Shown here: one piece after another, positions 6,121 through 13,047 of the stretch
How positions within the stretch are numbered: the stretch's first letter is position 1
Layout: each line of letters opens with the position of its first letter
From: Vicinamibacterales bacterium
GTDB taxonomy: Bacteria; Acidobacteriota; Vicinamibacteria; Vicinamibacterales; UBA2999
Direction of reading: 5' to 3'
Assembly (NCBI GenBank): GCA_030680175.1
Contig: JAUXWO010000129.1
Span: forward strand, 1-57,925
Length of the DNA: 57,925 nucleotides
Program-made: the position numbers and the translations under genes
Notes under the pieces: model-generated
Databases searched by the model: none
What the model was told of the DNA's origin: nothing
What the model saw: the letters and a program-made list of their open reading frames with translations, nothing else

Positions 6121-8790
6121 GTGTCCCGCCCCCTCGAACACGCGCCGCCGCTGCCCGCGGAGGGCGCGACCGTCACGCCGGCCATGCGGCAGTATCTGGA
6201 CGCGAAGCGGGCCCATCCGTCCGCCCTCGTGTTCTTCCGGATGGGCGATTTCTACGAGATGTTCTACGAGGATGCGCTGGTCGCCGCGCGCGCGCTCGAC
6301 CTGACGCTCACCTCGCGATCGAAGGATCCGACCGGCGCCTCGATCCCGATGTGTGGCGTGCCGTTCCACGCGGCGGACGGCTACATCGGCCGGCTCGTGA
6401 GCAAGGGCTACCGCGTCGCGGTCTGCGAGCAGGTCGAGGATCCGAAGAAGGCCAAGGGCGTCGTCAAGCGCGAGGTCGTGCGCGTGGTCTCGCCGGGCAC
6501 GCTGACGGACGCGGCGTATCTGGACGCGCGCGAGCCCGCCTTCCTCATGGCGGTCTCGGGTCTCGATGGCGGCGACGACGCCGTGGTCGGGGCGGCGGTG
6601 CTGGATCTGTCGACCGGCGAGTTCAGCGTGGGCGAGTACCGCGGGCGTGCGGGGCTGCAGGCGCTCGCCGACGACGTCGCGGTGATCCGCCCGCGCGAGA
6701 TCGTCGCGCCGGCCGGCGTGGATGTGCGGGCGGCCATCCCGGGCGTCGCGCAGGCCGAGATTCCGCTCACGGCGCTCGAGGGCTGGCAGTTCGACTACGC
6801 CTCCGCCCGCCAGACGTTGCTCGACCAGCTGCGCGTGCACGGGCTCGAGGGCTTCGGCCTTGACGGCCACGAGCCGGCGGTGGCCGCCTGCGGCGCGCTG
6901 ATCCGCTACCTGCGCGACACGCAGAAGGCCGACCTGCTCCACGTCCGCACGCTGCGCGTCCGCACCTCGGCCGACGCGCTGCTCGTGGATCCGACCACGC
7001 TGAAGCACCTGGAGGTGGTGGAGTCGGTGAGCGGCGGGCGCGCCGGGTCGCTGCTCCACGAGATCGACCGGACCTCCACGGCCATGGGCGGCCGGCTGCT
7101 GCGCGCGTGGCTCCTGCGTCCGCTCGTCTCGCTCGAGGCGATTCGCGAGCGGCTGGATGCGGTCGAGGAGTTCGCGTTCCGGACGACCGAGCGCGGCAAG
7201 CTGCGCGACACGCTCCGTACCGTGCAGGACCTGGAGCGCCTGGCCTCGCGCGTGGCGCTCTCGACGGCGGGCCCGCGCGACCTCGTGGCGCTCAAGCAGT
7301 CGCTGGCCGCGGCGCCGCGCGTGAAGATGCTCCTCGCCGAGTGCGAGGCGCCGCTCGTGCGCAGCCTCCTGGCGTCGCTCGACGAGCTGGCCGACGTGCG
7401 CGGATGGATCGAGCAGGCCGTCGTCGACGAGCCGCCGGCCCTGGCCCGCGACGGCGGCAGCCTCCGTGACGGCGTCGACGCCGAGCTGGATGACCTGCGC
7501 CACATCAGCCGGTCCGGCAAGCAGCTCATCGCCGAGATGGAGGAGGCCGAGCGGGCGCGCACCGGCATCGCGTCCCTGAAGGTGCGCTTCAACCGCGTCT
7601 TCGGGTACTACATCGAGATCTCGAAGGCCAACCTCCACCTCGTGCCCGACGACTACCTGCGCAAGCAGACGATTGCCGGCGGCGAGCGTTTCATCACGCC
7701 CGCCCTGAAGGACTACGAGGAGAAGGTGCTCGGCGCCGACGAGCGGATCCTCGAGCGCGAACTCACGCTGTTCGAGGCGCTGCGTCAGCGCGTGGCGGCC
7801 GAGTCGTCGCGCGTGCTCGACACGGCGCGCGCCATCGCCTCCCTCGACGTCCTGGCGGGGCTCGCGGAGACGGCCGCCGTGGCCAACTTCACCAAGCCGC
7901 ATGTCCACGAGGGCGACGAGCTCGTCGCGAGCGACGTGCGCCATCCGGTCGTGGAGCGGCTGGCCGGCGGCGCGTTCGTCCCGAACGACGTGTCCCTCGA
8001 CGGCACGGCGCGCCAGCTGGTGATCCTGACGGGCCCCAACATGGGCGGCAAGTCCACCTACCTGCGGCAGGTGGCCCTGCTCTCGCTGCTCGCGCAGTCG
8101 GGATCGTTCGTGCCGGCGCGCGAGGCCAAGCTGAGCCTGGTGGACCGCATCTACGCCCGCGTCGGCGCCTCCGACAACATCGCGCGCGGCCAGTCGACCT
8201 TCATGGTCGAGATGCAGGAGACGGCGCACATCCTGAACGGCGCGACCTCGCGCAGCCTCGTCGTGCTCGACGAGATCGGCCGCGGCACGGCCACCTTCGA
8301 TGGCCTGAGCATCGCCTGGGCCGTGGCCGAACACCTGGCGACGAGCGCGGTCGCGCGGCCGAAGACGCTCTTCGCCACGCACTATCACGAGCTCACGGAC
8401 CTGGCCGACGGCGTCGAGGGCGTGGTCAACCATCACGTCGCCGCGCGCGAGTGGCAGGACGACATCATCTTCCTGCACAAGATCCTGCCCGGCCGCTCCG
8501 ACCGCAGCTACGGCATCCAGGTCGCGCGGCTCGCCGGCCTGCCGCCCTCGGTCATCGCGCGGGCGCGCGCGATTCTGGGCGCGCTCGAGACCGACGAGCT
8601 GTCGCGGGGCGGGCGGCCGGCCCTGAGCGGCGCCCCGGCCGCCGCGCCACAGCAGCAGCTCGGGCTCTTCCAGACCGTCGTCGACGACCGCTTCCGTGAC
8701 CGGCTGCGGGCGCTCGACATCGATCAGACCACCCCGCTCGAGGCCCTGCGGCTGCTCGCCGAACTGCGGCGGGAGGCCACGGAGGAATGA
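6121..8790 (+). CDS. mutS: DNA mismatch repair ATPase MutS
   Basis: An 889-residue mismatch recognition protein of full length. The mismatch-reading Phe-x-Glu motif sits in RMGDFYEMFYEDA near residue 45. The connector, core/lever and clamp domains follow. The ATPase has Walker A GPNMGGKS from about residue 638, the signature DEIGRGTATFDG (Walker B region) and the ATHYHEL segment. The C-terminal tail carries a helical segment, as in MutS1. The start is GTG at 6121, with a GAGG sequence about 15 nt before it. A -10-like TATACT lies at about 6060. No mutL lies in the window. Its stop overlaps the next ORF by four bases. Confidence 0.96.
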   Translation: MSRPLEHAPPLPAEGATVTPAMRQYLDAKRAHPSALVFFRMGDFYEMFYEDALVAARALDLTLTSRSKDPTGASIPMCGVPFHAADGYIGRLVSKGYRVAVCEQVEDPKKAKGVVKREVVRVVSPGTLTDAAYLDAREPAFLMAVSGLDGGDDAVVGAAVLDLSTGEFSVGEYRGRAGLQALADDVAVIRPREIVAPAGVDVRAAIPGVAQAEIPLTALEGWQFDYASARQTLLDQLRVHGLEGFGLDGHEPAVAACGALIRYLRDTQKADLLHVRTLRVRTSADALLVDPTTLKHLEVVESVSGGRAGSLLHEIDRTSTAMGGRLLRAWLLRPLVSLEAIRERLDAVEEFAFRTTERGKLRDTLRTVQDLERLASRVALSTAGPRDLVALKQSLAAAPRVKMLLAECEAPLVRSLLASLDELADVRGWIEQAVVDEPPALARDGGSLRDGVDAELDDLRHISRSGKQLIAEMEEAERARTGIASLKVRFNRVFGYYIEISKANLHLVPDDYLRKQTIAGGERFITPALKDYEEKVLGADERILERELTLFEALRQRVAAESSRVLDTARAIASLDVLAGLAETAAVANFTKPHVHEGDELVASDVRHPVVERLAGGAFVPNDVSLDGTARQLVILTGPNMGGKSTYLRQVALLSLLAQSGSFVPAREAKLSLVDRIYARVGASDNIARGQSTFMVEMQETAHILNGATSRSLVVLDEIGRGTATFDGLSIAWAVAEHLATSAVARPKTLFATHYHELTDLADGVEGVVNHHVAAREWQDDIIFLHKILPGRSDRSYGIQVARLAGLPPSVIARARAILGALETDELSRGGRPALSGAPAAAPQQQLGLFQTVVDDRFRDRLRALDIDQTTPLEALRLLAELRREATEE

Positions 8791-10319
8791 CGCGCGCTCG
8801 CGTGGGCCGCGCGCTGACGCTGGCCGCCGCGCTCGCGGCCGCGGCGGCGTGTGCCGGCGCCCCGGCGACCGACCCGGCGTACATCACCGTCGCCGTGCCA
8901 AGCTCCCCGAACAGCTTCGACCCGCGCGTCGGCACCGACGAGGTGTCGCAGCGCGTCTACCAGCTGGTCTACGACAACCTCTTCAACCTCGACGATCGCC
9001 TCCGCGTCTCGCCGGGGCTCGCGACCGGGTGGGAGACGCCCGACGATCGCACCTACGTCGTGCACCTGCGCGACGGCGTGACGTTCCACGACGGCCAGGC
9101 CTTCGACGCCGACGATGTGGTCTACACGTTCGGGAGCCTGATTGACCCCGAGTTCCTGTCGGCGCGCAAGGGCGCCTACCGCATGCTCGAGCGCGTGGAG
9201 GCGCTCGATGCGCGCACGGTGCGCTTCACGCTGAGCGAGCCGTTCGGTTCCTTCCCCATCAACCTCGTGCTGCCGATCGTCCCCGACGGCGCGGGCGCCG
9301 GACTGCGCGACACCCCCGTGGGGACCGGGCCGTACCGGTTCGTGCGCTATGCCGTCGACGACCGGCTCGAGCTCGCGCGGTTCGACGGCTACTGGCAGGG
9401 CGCCGCCCGCAACGCCGGCCTGGTGCTGAAGGTCGTCCCCGACGACATCATGCGCGGACTCGAGCTGCGCAAGGGCACCGTGGACCTGGTCATCAACGAC
9501 CTGGCCCCCGACATCGTGTTCCAGCTCGAGGAGGACGACGCCCTGCAGGTCGTGCACTCCCCCGGGACCGACTACGCGTATGTCGGCTTCAACCTGCGGG
9601 ACCCGCTGCTGGCCGACGTGCGCGTGCGCCAGGCCATCGGCTATGCGATCGACCGCGACGCCATCGTGGCGCATCTGCGCCGCGGGCTGGCCCGGCCGGC
9701 CGCCGGCATCCTCCCCGACATCTCGTGGGCCTTCGAGCCCGCGGTGTTCCAGTTCACCTACGACCCGGCGCGCGCGCGGCAGCTGCTCGACGAGGCGGGC
9801 TATCCCGACCCGGACGGCGACGGGCCAGCGCCCCGCCTCCACCTGACGCTGAAGGTGTCGACCAACGAGTTCATCCGGCTGCAGGCGGCCGTCATCCAGC
9901 AGGATCTGCGCGCGGTGGGCATCGAACTGGACGTGCGCTCGTACGAATTCGCCACGCTCTACGCGGACGTCCTGCGCGGGCAGTTCCAGCTCTTCACGCT
10001 GCAGTGGGTGGGCGTCTCCGACCCCGACATGCTGCGCCGGGTGTTCCACTCCAGCCAGATGCCGCCGACCGGGTTCAATCGCGGGCACTACCGCAACCCC
10101 GAGGTGGACCAGCTGATCGACCGCGCCACCGTGGCCACCGACGATGCGACCCGTCGCGAGGCGTATGGCGCGGCGCAGCGGCTGATCGCCGAGGAGGCGC
10201 CCTACATCAGCCTCTGGTACAAGACGAACGTCGCGGTCGCGCAGCCCGGGATCGAGGGACTGCGCCTGTCGCCGTCCGCGGACTTCAGCGCCCTTCGTCA
10301 CGTGAGCCGCGCGCGCTGA
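8787..10319 (+). CDS. Peptide/nickel-type ABC transporter substrate-binding lipoprotein (SBP family 5)
   Basis: A 510-residue extracytoplasmic solute-binding protein of the OppA/DppA family. The N-terminus is a lipoprotein signal peptide ending in an AAAC lipobox, so it should be membrane-anchored. The family pattern begins at FDPRVGTDEVSQRVYQLVYDNLF and continues through VHLRDGVTFHDGQAFDADDVVYTF and DTPVGTGPYRF. Its ATG overlaps the mutS stop (ATGA), so it is translationally coupled to a DNA repair gene, which is odd. No permease or ATPase genes lie nearby, so it is an orphan that must borrow a transporter or act as a sensor or chaperone. Ligand unknown. Confidence 0.88.
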   Translation: MTRARVGRALTLAAALAAAAACAGAPATDPAYITVAVPSSPNSFDPRVGTDEVSQRVYQLVYDNLFNLDDRLRVSPGLATGWETPDDRTYVVHLRDGVTFHDGQAFDADDVVYTFGSLIDPEFLSARKGAYRMLERVEALDARTVRFTLSEPFGSFPINLVLPIVPDGAGAGLRDTPVGTGPYRFVRYAVDDRLELARFDGYWQGAARNAGLVLKVVPDDIMRGLELRKGTVDLVINDLAPDIVFQLEEDDALQVVHSPGTDYAYVGFNLRDPLLADVRVRQAIGYAIDRDAIVAHLRRGLARPAAGILPDISWAFEPAVFQFTYDPARARQLLDEAGYPDPDGDGPAPRLHLTLKVSTNEFIRLQAAVIQQDLRAVGIELDVRSYEFATLYADVLRGQFQLFTLQWVGVSDPDMLRRVFHSSQMPPTGFNRGHYRNPEVDQLIDRATVATDDATRREAYGAAQRLIAEEAPYISLWYKTNVAVAQPGIEGLRLSPSADFSALRHVSRAR

Positions 10320-10337
10320 GCGGCCGCGGCGCTGCGG

Positions 10338-10343
10338 TACAAT
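10338..10343 (+). promoter_or_regulatory. Candidate -10 element (TACAAT) for a leaderless transcript
   Basis: TACAAT ends 7 nt before the GTG at 10351. Transcription would begin at or near that codon. No good -35 hexamer is seen. The hexamer overlaps an ATG at 10342, which would therefore not be in the mRNA. Confidence 0.5.
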
Positions 10344-10350
10344 GTCGCGC

Positions 10351-11424
10351 GTGGCGAAATCCTCCCGGTTCCTGAAGGCGCCCGTACAGCCGTTCGAGGT
10401 GCGCGCCGGCGCCACCGCCGAGGACGTGCTGGAACGGATGGAGCGCATCTCCTTTCAGGGCCGCACGCTGGCCACGGCACAGCGGGTCTGGCAGCGCATG
10501 CTGGGCGACCGGTGCCTGATCTTCCTCGGGCTGGCGGGCGCGCTGAGCGCGGGCGGGCTCCGGCTCGCCGTGGCGCACCTGATTCACACGCGCGCGGTCG
10601 ACTGCCTCGTCTCGACCGGCGCCAATCTGTATCACGATCTCCACGAGACGCGGGGGCGGCACCACTTCATCGGATCGCCCGCCGCCGATGACGGCGCGCT
10701 GGCGGCCGAACGGATCGACCGCGTCTACGACACGTTCGCCAGCGAGGACGAGTTCGCCGACAACGACGAGTGGATCGCGCAGTTCGCCCTGACGCTCGAG
10801 GCCCGGCCGCACACGACGCGCGAGTTCCTCTACCGGCTCGGCGAGCGGCTCTGGACGGAGACCGGCGGCGACGGCATCCTGACGGCGGCCTTCCGCGCCG
10901 GGATTCCGATCTACTGTCCGGCGATCGCCGACTCCTCCATCGGCATGGGCCTGGCGCAGGCGCGGCATCACGACCCGGCCGCCGGGCACATCGACACGAT
11001 CGGCGACGTGATCGAGTCCACGAACCTGGTCATCGCCCATCCGCAGACGGCGTCGGTCGTCTTCGGCGGCGGTACGCCGAAGAACTTCATCAACCAGGCG
11101 GCGGTCGAGGCGGAGTACTTCTGTCCCGACGTCAAGGGCCATCGGTATGCGATCCAGATCGTGACCGACGTGCCGTTCTATGGCGGCGCCTCGGGCTCGA
11201 CGCTCGAAGAGGCCGAGAGCTGGGGCAAGCTGGCCGCGGATGCGGCGCGCGTCAGCGTCCGTGCCGATGCCACGCTCGCCGTCCCCCTGCTGCTGACGGC
11301 CCTCAGCGGCAGCGCTGCCGATCTCCTCGCCACGCGTGTCCTGCCTGCCTTCTCCCAGGACGGCGGCACGCTGCGGATCAACGACGCCCCTGTGTCCACT
11401 TCACGATTTGCGAGTTCCCAATGA
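10351..11424 (+). CDS. Deoxyhypusine synthase-like protein (probable NAD-dependent polyamine aminobutyl transferase)
   Basis: About 357 residues, the length of eukaryotic/archaeal deoxyhypusine synthase. The catalytic lysine that forms the covalent enzyme-aminobutyl imine is present in EAESWGKLA (residue 293 from this start), followed by the conserved VRADATLAVPLL. The NAD-binding segments are recognisable: STGANLYHD, GDVIESTN and FGGGTPKNFIN. The usual KHH of true deoxyhypusine synthases reads PKNF here. Bacteria lack eIF5A, so the protein substrate is missing. Its ATG-coupled neighbour is an agmatinase-type enzyme, which suggests a polyamine role such as making homospermidine from putrescine (inference). 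GTG 10351 is preferred because the -10-like box covers the ATG at 10342; that ATG is the alternative start. Confidence 0.8.
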   Translation: MAKSSRFLKAPVQPFEVRAGATAEDVLERMERISFQGRTLATAQRVWQRMLGDRCLIFLGLAGALSAGGLRLAVAHLIHTRAVDCLVSTGANLYHDLHETRGRHHFIGSPAADDGALAAERIDRVYDTFASEDEFADNDEWIAQFALTLEARPHTTREFLYRLGERLWTETGGDGILTAAFRAGIPIYCPAIADSSIGMGLAQARHHDPAAGHIDTIGDVIESTNLVIAHPQTASVVFGGGTPKNFINQAAVEAEYFCPDVKGHRYAIQIVTDVPFYGGASGSTLEEAESWGKLAADAARVSVRADATLAVPLLLTALSGSAADLLATRVLPAFSQDGGTLRINDAPVSTSRFASSQ

Positions 11425-12320
11425 GCCTGCCGTTTGAGTACGACCACACCGCGCCCCTCCAGTTCCTTGGCAGCCGTCCCGTCGCGCCGTCGTTCGACGA
11501 TGCGCGCGTGATCGTGCTGCCGGTGCCGCTCGAGCGGTCCACCTCGTATGTGCCGGGCACGCGGTTCGGTCCGCGCGAGATCCTGCTGGCCTCGGCCCAG
11601 GTGGAGCTGTTCGACGAGGAGCATGGGGTGGACGTGCATCCCGTGGGGGTCTACACGCTGCCCGAGATGGAGTTTCACGATGGCGATCTCGGCGCCTGCG
11701 TCGCGCGCATTCGCAAGGTCGTGAGCGAGATCGTCGAACGCGGGAAGCTCCCGATCGTCCTCGGCGGCGAGCACTCGATCACGCCCGCCGTCGTCGGGGC
11801 CGTGGCGCCGGCGTTCCCGAAGCTCTCGGTGCTCCAGATCGACGCGCACAGCGACCTCCGGCAGCAGTACCAGGGCAGCCCGCACAGCCACGCCTGCGCC
11901 ATGGCCCGGTCGCTGGAGTTCGCCCCGGCGGTGCAGGTCGGCATTCGCGCGATGTCGGAAGAGGAGCGCGCCTCCCTGCCGGGCCTGCAGACGCGCGTGT
12001 TCTACGACTGGAACATGCGGGAGGACCCCGCCTGGATGGACGCCGTGGTCGACGCGCTCGACGAGCAGGTCTACATCACGGTGGACGTGGACGGCATGGA
12101 TCCCGCGATCATGCCGGCCACGGGGACGCCCGAGCCTGGCGGGCTCACGTGGCCGGAGATGCTCGGGTTGATGCGCCGCGTGTTCGCGCGGCGCACCGTG
12201 GTGGGATGGGACGTCGTGGAGCTGAGCCCGAACGGGACGCACGCCCCGAACTTCCTCTGCGCGCGCCTGATCTACAAGATGCTGGGCTACAAGTTCGCGC
12301 GCGAGTTCACGACACCGTGA
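11421..12320 (+). CDS. speB: Agmatinase / ureohydrolase family enzyme
   Basis: A 299-residue ureohydrolase that should split a guanidino substrate into urea and an amine, classically agmatine to putrescine. All dimanganese ligands are present: His118 (GGEHS), Asp141, His143 and Asp145 (DAHSD), and Asp222 and Asp224 (DVDGMDP). The conserved TGTPEPGG loop also fits. The ATG overlaps the stop of the deoxyhypusine-synthase-like gene by four bases, so the two are made together. An alternative substrate is N1-aminopropylagmatine, used by some SpeB homologues. The last 14 bp overlap the convergent TPR gene. Confidence 0.88.
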   Translation: MSLPFEYDHTAPLQFLGSRPVAPSFDDARVIVLPVPLERSTSYVPGTRFGPREILLASAQVELFDEEHGVDVHPVGVYTLPEMEFHDGDLGACVARIRKVVSEIVERGKLPIVLGGEHSITPAVVGAVAPAFPKLSVLQIDAHSDLRQQYQGSPHSHACAMARSLEFAPAVQVGIRAMSEEERASLPGLQTRVFYDWNMREDPAWMDAVVDALDEQVYITVDVDGMDPAIMPATGTPEPGGLTWPEMLGLMRRVFARRTVVGWDVVELSPNGTHAPNFLCARLIYKMLGYKFAREFTTP

Positions 12321-13047
12321 TCTGGTCGAGCGCCGCGCGCGCGGCCGGTGCAAACGGCGACTCGGCATGCTGCTCGACGATCGTCGTGAGCGTCGTGCGG
12401 GCGTCGTCGAGCCGGCCGGCCAGCTGGTAGACGCGGGCGAGTTCCATCAGGAGGCCCTCGGCCGGCAGCTGCGCATCCGGGGTGCCGACGAGCGAGGTGT
12501 AGACCGCGATCGCCTCGTCGTACTGGCCCGCCTGCACGTGCGCCTCGGCCTTCCCGAGCCGCGCGGTCCGCGCCATCAGATCGCGTCCCGACATCAGCTG
12601 ATCGTAGTGGGCGATGGCCTCGTCGTGGCGCCCGAGGCTGACGAGCACGCCGGCCGCATGGAACCGGGCCGTGCGCGCGGCGTTGGTGCCGGGAAACGCG
12701 TCCGCGGTCTCGAGGAACTGCGGCAGCGCCGCTTCGAGCCGCGCGCGGTCGCTCGGGAACGTGCCCGGCATCTGCCCCGTCATCGTCGGCTGGTCGGGCG
12801 TGCTCGAGGGTGCGGGCGGCATCACGCGCGATTCGTAGGTGACCATCGCCGCGGCGAGGCGCGCGCGCGCGTCGTTCTCGATGGACGCCTGCCACGCGAC
12901 GTAGCCCGCAACGCCCGCGATGAGCAGCACGACGGCGATGGCCGCGATGGCCAGCGCCTTCGCGTTGGTGCCAAACCAGACCTGCGCGCGCGCCAGCACC
13001 AGGGCCAGATCGTTCTCCTTCAGATGATGCCGTTCAGACGTCTTCAT
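12307..13047 (-). CDS. Membrane-anchored tetratricopeptide protein (YfgM-like)
   Basis: A 246-residue protein with a short cytoplasmic N-terminus, one membrane helix (about residues 33-52, ALAIAAIAVVLLIAGVAGYV) and a periplasmic helical-repeat domain. TPR-like repeats are visible around FPGTNAARTARFHAAGVLVSLGRHDEAIAHYDQL and the following two units. The arrangement matches YfgM/BamD-like tetratricopeptide proteins that work near the Sec translocon or outer-membrane assembly, but no specific partner is evident. A good ribosome binding site (AGGAGAGG) precedes the ATG. It converges on speB with a 14-bp overlap and lies just downstream of the tRNA-Arg gene. Confidence 0.7.
   Translation of the reverse strand: MKTSERHHLKENDLALVLARAQVWFGTNAKALAIAAIAVVLLIAGVAGYVAWQASIENDARARLAAAMVTYESRVMPPAPSSTPDQPTMTGQMPGTFPSDRARLEAALPQFLETADAFPGTNAARTARFHAAGVLVSLGRHDEAIAHYDQLMSGRDLMARTARLGKAEAHVQAGQYDEAIAVYTSLVGTPDAQLPAEGLLMELARVYQLAGRLDDARTTLTTIVEQHAESPFAPAARAALDQITVS

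Follow-up and report, generated by a model that had tools for sequence, protein, structure and literature searches.

The DNA analysed here, referred to as the window, is a stretch of 57,925 nucleotides from a Vicinamibacterales bacterium, which we presume to be a soil organism. Within it, two adjacent genes encode a protein of the deoxyhypusine synthase (DHS) family and a SpeB-like protein of 299 amino acids (Table 1). The open reading frame of the former covers 10342-11424 from an ATG at 10342, with an in-frame GTG at 10351 as an alternative start; the frame is intact and specifies 357-360 amino acids, depending on the start. The later start is mildly favoured by the N-termini of orthologs (M..KSRFL..P), the starts of which were themselves partly picked by a simple rule. 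As a first-pass annotation of the sequence had pointed out, the stop codon of the DHS-like gene overlaps the start of a complete ureohydrolase gene. No promoter or terminator was found in a scan of positions 10100-12700. The names of two flanking genes (mutS-like and substrate-binding-protein-like) rest on the sequence and should be taken as presumptive. Since relatives of 62-72% identity have the same kind of neighbour in other genomes, the pairing is not a matter of chance.

Table 1. Features in and around the gene pair, in window coordinates.
Feature	Position	Strand	Basis
mutS-like gene (presumptive name; context, slot marker)	6121..8790	+	ORF; relative upstream in 15 of the best 20 loci of at least 585
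Substrate-binding-protein-like gene (presumptive name; upstream context, outside the pathway claim)	8787..10319	+	ORF; relative in 9 of the best 20 loci of at least 585
DHS-family gene (window clade, putatively speY-like)	10351..11424	+	PF01916, 5.5e-81; K296, W294, E290; ortholog N-termini
ATGA stop/start overlap (TGA of the DHS-like gene with ATG of the speB-like gene)	11421..11424	+	Sequence
speB-like agmatinase gene	11421..12320	+	PF00491, 1.2e-65; TIGR01230, 229.6 bits against a cut-off of 174.3; three motifs
TPR protein gene (far flank of the slot)	12307..13047	-	TPR families; relative follows in 16 of the best 20 loci of at least 585

The DHS-like protein matched the Pfam family DS (PF01916) with 272.4 bits (cut-off 27) over positions 2-286 of the 288 in the profile. 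In an NCBIfam scan, it fell below the cut-offs of all seven DHS-family equivalogs. The top match was NF002006 (PRK00805), a bacterial 'deoxyhypusine synthase', yet the score of 331 bits was below the cut-off of 434; the values for deoxyhypusine synthase (TIGR00321), CdmS (NF002699) and SpeY (NF001980) were 262 against 304.25, 253.5 against 500 and 199.3 against 450, respectively. Human DHS modifies a translation factor; to our knowledge, eIF5A is absent from bacteria. A protein substrate of the kind implied by the name of NF002006 is unlikely for the window protein, and this name, which the nearest NCBI family bears despite the absence of the substrate protein from bacteria, may be misleading for members of this sort.

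When mapped through a PDB alignment, K329, W327 and E323 of human DHS are conserved as K296, W294 and E290 (360-residue numbering), and the glycine-rich segment is also conserved. The imine-forming lysine that the first-pass annotation saw in the SWGK motif is thus borne out. In contrast, human D243, D316, N292 and H288 are replaced by M202, A283, Q252 and N248. According to the available text of PMC7226451, these residues of the human enzyme function in spermidine binding or proton transfer, H288 being the general base. The previously noted replacement of the usual KHH by PKNF was likewise confirmed, the segment reading GGGTPKNF in place of GGGVVKHH. We considered PKNF as a possible mark of new chemistry and rejected it. 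In an alignment of 126 rows (97 from clade B, three of them duplicating others from the same records, 9 SpeY-type, 7 NF002699-type, 5 clade D, 6 clade C and 2 others; clades are described below), Asn occupies the H288 column in 111 of the 124 rows belonging to the five clades: 90/97 in B, 9/9 in SpeY-type, 7/7 in NF002699-type, 5/5 in D and 0/6 in C, where all six have Asp. The departure from the human motif is therefore ordinary among the bacterial homologues compared.

The SpeB-like protein matched the Arginase family (PF00491) with 222 bits (cut-off 22) and exceeded the cut-off of the agmatinase equivalog. It contains GGEHS, DAHSD and DVDGMDP at residues 115, 141 and 222, which we take to be the metal-binding motifs, and its nearest solved ureohydrolase is 3pzl.

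The host genome (4.98 Mb in 143 contigs) contains one other DHS-family match, a paralogue on contig C72 that is 31.8% identical to the window protein and is SpeY-type, with an NF001980 score of 428.8 against 450. Three ureohydrolases are encoded: an arginase (C11), the window SpeB and a second agmatinase (C34; TIGR01230, 192.8 against 174.3) that is unlinked to the window. Two proteins belong to PF02784, one of them a biosynthetic arginine decarboxylase, SpeA (769.6 against 624.1), and the other nearest to solved diaminopimelate decarboxylases. The search for speA and speE elsewhere in the genome that the first-pass annotation had proposed therefore located speA, unlinked to the window pair. 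The search for speE gave a different outcome: there are three large proteins with a Spermine_synth domain, two of which are fused MFS/spermidine synthase-like proteins scoring 82.9 and 68.3, far below the speE cut-off of 249.55; in the third (L014), comparison with solved structures indicated a fusion of TPR repeats with a spermidine-synthase-like domain. Searches of the host genome found no AAT-fold ODC and no agmatine deiminase AguA. Nor was there a match over the cut-off of Sacchrp_dh_NADP, which we chose as the domain presumed to mark HSS and carboxyspermidine dehydrogenase; the best score was just under it (24.5 against 25.1). One SpeD-like gene is present (TIGR03330, 83.1 against 75.65). 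It lies on G000:C62 (L010, 5620-10036), directly before genes for an exosortase-like protein, a family-less protein and a methyltransferase, and speA is located about 10 kb beyond this group.

Given SpeA and the agmatinases in this inventory, the host is predicted to be able to make putrescine from arginine via agmatine, and the two DHS paralogues are the best candidates for forming a triamine from it. The SpeD-like gene may also support a route to spermidine. The C72 paralogue, speA and the C34 agmatinase constitute, at the gene level, a second complete putative route, so that the window pair looks redundant. The first-pass annotation had named a separate complete pathway, with the window pair silent, as grounds for abandoning its proposal; of these, the separate pathway is present as genes.

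To place the window protein in its phylum, 149 Acidobacteriota genomes with a completeness of 90% or more were surveyed. A DHS-family match was found in 123, and in 121 it exceeded the cut-off. A tree of 46 proteins resolved five groups, namely clade B (with the window protein), a SpeY-type clade (with the C72 paralogue), an NF002699-type clade, and clades C and D; the labels rest on NCBIfam scores, and the deep joins are unsure owing to long branches. One clade-B relative (L017/L054) attained the NF002006 cut-off (434.4 against 434). By tblastn, SpeB adjoins the DHS gene in 8 and SpeA in 9 of 17 clade-B loci including the window, with either or both in 15. The equivalent figures for SpeA or SpeB were 0/9 for SpeY-type loci, 0/5 for clade D, 0/4 for NF002699-type loci of Acidobacteriota and 1/6 for clade C. 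Six further SpeA-linked loci were probed, one of which had SpeB as well.

Directly 3' of speA, a number of Acidobacteriota carry a subclade of DHS paralogues (L059, L060, L066-L069, L083, L084, L092-L097) in which SWGK and/or PKNF are altered: L059 has TWGR, L084 NWSR and L068 NWNK, and L093-L096 lack GGGxPKNF. The frames matched are about 330-360 codons long, 3 of the 15 listed contain one internal stop, and another DHS-family match is present in 10 of 11 genomes (G009, G057, G046, G101, G085, G093, G133, G125, G035, G141 and G109). This subclade may represent a conserved pseudoenzyme or a regulatory subunit. Because many SpeA-linked copies have an altered SWGK or PKNF, they say little about substrate. 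For the same reason we set aside a tally of AguA versus adjacent SpeB across the sampled Acidobacteriota genomes, which had looked supportive: SWGK is altered in 7 of the 8 SpeA-linked clade-B copies from AguA-bearing genomes, and our argument therefore rests on the best 20 loci described next. The survey also revealed a very divergent DHS-family clade (L085-L090, scoring about 120-155 bits against PF01916) that retains the catalytic Lys in 6/6 but has Asp at the H288 column; one measured member was 24% identical to the window protein, and in the one scanned every NCBIfam score was below 100.

A scan of public genome collections yielded at least 585 confirmed relatives, of which the best 80 were analysed as the nearest, rather than a random, sample. 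The best 20 (L114-L133; 62-72% identity; Acidobacteriota by record title), three of which had already appeared in the phylum survey as G078, G103 and G038, were probed by tblastn with 20 protein sequences. The DHS gene was followed by speB in 16 of these 20 and by aguA plus aguB in the other 4; no locus had both and none had neither. Among the 16 speB-type loci, speB was on the same strand at 0-12 nt from the DHS gene in 14, the matches abutting at zero gap in four, like the window, and being separated by 6-12 nt in 10 more; the remaining two had gaps of 57 and 153 nt, where a match seems shortened. The aguA and aguB genes were on the opposite strand in L124, L125 and L130. In L133 they were on the same strand with aguB first, and the DHS and aguA matches were split by a broken frame. 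Pfam identified AguA (PF04371, 367-369 bits) in the three loci scanned (L124, L125 and L130) and AguB as a carbon-nitrogen hydrolase (CN_hydrolase) in the two scanned (L125 and L133). Relatives of the mutS-like and TPR genes, present in 15 and 16 of these best 20 of at least 585, flank all four aguAB-type loci; three speB-type loci (L114, L115 and L119) had no TPR match in more than 1 kb of downstream sequence. On the tree, the aguAB label requires two changes, forced by well supported branches. The DHS proteins of L124, L125 and L130 retain K, W, N and A67.

The other 60 of the best 80 loci, examined as loci rather than for genomic paralogues, come by record title from Nitrospirae, deltaproteobacteria, Zixibacteria, Eisenbacteria, Latescibacterota, Chloroflexi, archaea, other Acidobacteriota and others. 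In 45 of them speB adjoins the DHS gene. Decarboxylase matches comprised pyruvoyl arginine decarboxylase in 41 (Pfam-confirmed as PvlArgDC in two of two loci scanned), SpeD in 4, all weak (33-43% over short stretches), and SpeA in 2; eight loci had neither speB nor any decarboxylase match. Among these relatives the DHS gene is constant, and the decarboxylase and the agmatine module vary. In L137, Ala replaces the catalytic Lys within a speA-dhs-speB run.

These results point to a model in which the DHS-family enzyme is probably a SpeY-like homospermidine synthase that is supplied with putrescine by SpeB. The window pair would form an operon responsible for the final two steps of homospermidine synthesis. 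SpeA, encoded elsewhere in the genome, would provide agmatine, from which the window SpeB would remove urea to give putrescine. The DHS-family enzyme would then oxidise putrescine with bound NAD, retain the aminobutyl group in imine linkage to K296, pass it to a second putrescine and reduce the product to sym-homospermidine. Co-transcription, substrates, product and mechanism are all inferred by analogy with the biochemistry of SpeY and DHS. The strongest evidence for this reading is the exchange of speB for aguA/aguB in one slot: putrescine is the shared product of SpeB and of AguA plus AguB, which argues against homocoupling of agmatine. The exchange beside close orthologs thus serves as a natural test of substrate, favouring putrescine over agmatine, and it assists in telling SpeY-like from CdmS-like reactions within the DHS family. 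A route from SpeB-derived putrescine to homospermidine had been offered in the first-pass annotation, and of its proposals this predicted activity is the one best supported by context and pocket residues. The annotation did not mention the C72 paralogue, the CdmS-type alternative or the published speY-speB clusters.

A different possibility is that the window enzyme divides labour with the SpeY-type paralogue, either as a partner subunit in a mixed oligomer or by using another acceptor; with homospermidine, for example, the product would be a tetraamine. Both DHS types, judged from profile pattern, occur in 19 of the 20 genomes of the slot analysis (best 20 of at least 585), and trypanosomatid DHS with its regulatory paralogue offers a precedent (6dft_B, one of our structure matches, is presumably that enzyme). 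The speA-linked subclade, with altered catalytic motifs but long frames, points in the same direction. However, the window enzyme keeps the K, W and E residues and the glycine-rich segment and so need not be a helper, and 40 of the 60 more distant loci (within the best 80 of at least 585) hold a DHS gene, speB and an arginine-decarboxylase-like gene of one of the three kinds together. We consider such a division distinctly unlikely. As a claim in its own right, it is unlikely that the window enzyme, rather than being a spare homospermidine synthase, produces an additional polyamine (a tetraamine through aminobutyl transfer to homospermidine, or a guanidino-polyamine) or assembles with the SpeY-type paralogue into an obligate mixed oligomer; if true, two different DHS-family enzymes would operate in parallel in most genomes of the closest relatives. 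The co-occurrence of two such genes in one genome poses a testable question in polyamine biology.

The alternative of agmatine coupling is modelled on CdmS, the caldomycin synthase of Thermus. Here the DHS homologue would join two agmatines to give caldomycin, and SpeB would strip both guanidino groups to yield homospermidine. The available text of PMC10981699 reports this route for Thermus CdmS with its ureohydrolase. CdmS resembles the window protein in its DHS fold and catalytic Lys, in having a ureohydrolase partner and in having lost the two spermidine-anchoring Asp residues (Phe204 and Leu286 in CdmS, according to the same text). The speA-dhs-speB order of some loci would also fit, and E135 and D142 of the window protein lie at the positions expected for CdmS E136 and D143. 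The latter do not discriminate, since both residues are also found in a Sphingomonas enzyme of the NF002699-type clade. The gene next to that enzyme bears the annotation 'type III PLP-dependent enzyme' and is likely to encode an ODC, and an NF002699-type pocket may therefore serve putrescine too; by the same token, pocket type is no proof of substrate.

With this caveat, the pocket residues lean to the SpeY clade. We compared 22 diagnostic columns that are invariant inside the SpeY-type clade and inside the NF002699-type clade and differ between them; the window protein has the SpeY residue in 10, the CdmS residue in 5 (194, 203, 255, 286 and 288, some of them near the pocket) and neither in 7. 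At the six diagnostic columns on a pocket list of our own, drawn up after the alignment table had been seen, the window protein is SpeY-type in all (A67, Y97, M202, Q252, G282 and D309). In CdmS, Ser67 binds the guanidino group (PMC10981699, available text). The corresponding column, matched by position, is Ser in 7/7 NF002699-type proteins, whereas it is Ala in the window protein and in 92 of the 97 clade-B rows; the Phe204 column is Met in the window protein.

The exchange in the slot also bears on agmatine coupling, because a product formed as in CdmS would need a ureohydrolase afterwards. In G149 and G150, the genomes of L124 and L125, the sole ureohydrolase found was an arginase, with 64 and 66% identity, respectively, to the host RocF; in G151 an arginase was accompanied by an agmatinase-like fragment at the end of a contig, and in G152 there were two other ureohydrolase matches, all four genomes being of unstated completeness. 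AguA, or an arginase, may act on caldomycin; the available text of PMC10981699 describes very weak activity of the Thermus arginase TtARG towards this compound. Together with an NF002699 score at about half of the cut-off, these findings make agmatine coupling at the window locus quite improbable.

Two further proposals of the first-pass annotation, both of them highly improbable, fared poorly. Deoxyhypusine-like transfer onto a bacterial protein would agree with the fold family and the catalytic Lys shared with DHS, but N248, M202 and A283 stand in place of the general-base His and the two spermidine-anchoring Asp, the TIGR00321 score is below the cut-off and the gene context is one of polyamine synthesis. 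The idea that SpeB acts on N1-aminopropylagmatine while the DHS homologue does something else could draw on the SpeD-like gene and the three proteins with a spermidine-synthase-like domain; it conflicts with the speE scores of the two typed proteins, the fusion of the third domain to TPR repeats, the exosortase-like and methyltransferase neighbours of the SpeD-like gene, and the ability of aguA/aguB to take the place of speB in the slot.

Several known systems come close to the window pair. SpeY of Anabaena, reportedly the subject of Burnat 2018, and of other organisms has the DHS fold, the catalytic Lys, PKNF and the six pocket columns in common with the window protein. It differs in that the window protein falls in a separate clade of the 46-protein tree and below the NF001980 cut-off, and in that none of nine SpeY-type loci examined has speA or speB beside the DHS gene, unlike the window. 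The available text of PMC10407285 describes speD_A, speB and speY clustered together in several phyla, with a fused aguA-aguB in one cluster, and that of PMC9992855 describes speY of Pelagibacterales with an agmatinase or AguA/AguB homologues. As far as these texts go, the published clusters bring together an arginine decarboxylase, an agmatine-to-putrescine module and a DHS homologue, with speB and aguAB as alternatives, as here; they differ in that speA is unlinked to the window pair and that the exchange was seen here in one slot among close orthologs. In view of these clusters, the kind of speY-speB pathway is already known, and the window pair is a new example of it. A literature search, mostly outside subscription papers, found no report or assay of the clade in Acidobacteria.

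Finally, a viral scan (IMG/VR) gave DHS-family matches on 23 contigs. On 16 of these 23 phage contigs, the DHS homologue was accompanied by matches to a SpeB-like ureohydrolase and a SpeD-like decarboxylase, so that phage contigs carry what is by gene content a whole putative arginine-to-homospermidine cassette. Examples are L254 (2956-5031; Pfam-confirmed), L261, L285 (9294-10971, with the SpeD-like match just upstream) and others; L265 is the same contig as L285, with the SpeB match split. BLASTP found no SpeY homologue in viruses or phages according to the available text of PMC9992855, and our literature search found no other report of phage homospermidine-type cassettes. The L254 protein had no match in 50,697 phage records. 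The L254 cassette adjoins an endolysin gene, and L285 also encodes a clamp, a clamp loader, a DNA polymerase and a UvsX-like recombinase of phage families. The ten proteins around L281 gave a single PHROG match, to a family listed in PHROG as of unknown function. Of five phage DHS proteins compared, four could be assigned to the NF002699-type clade on identity and pocket, and L273 to clade D on identity.
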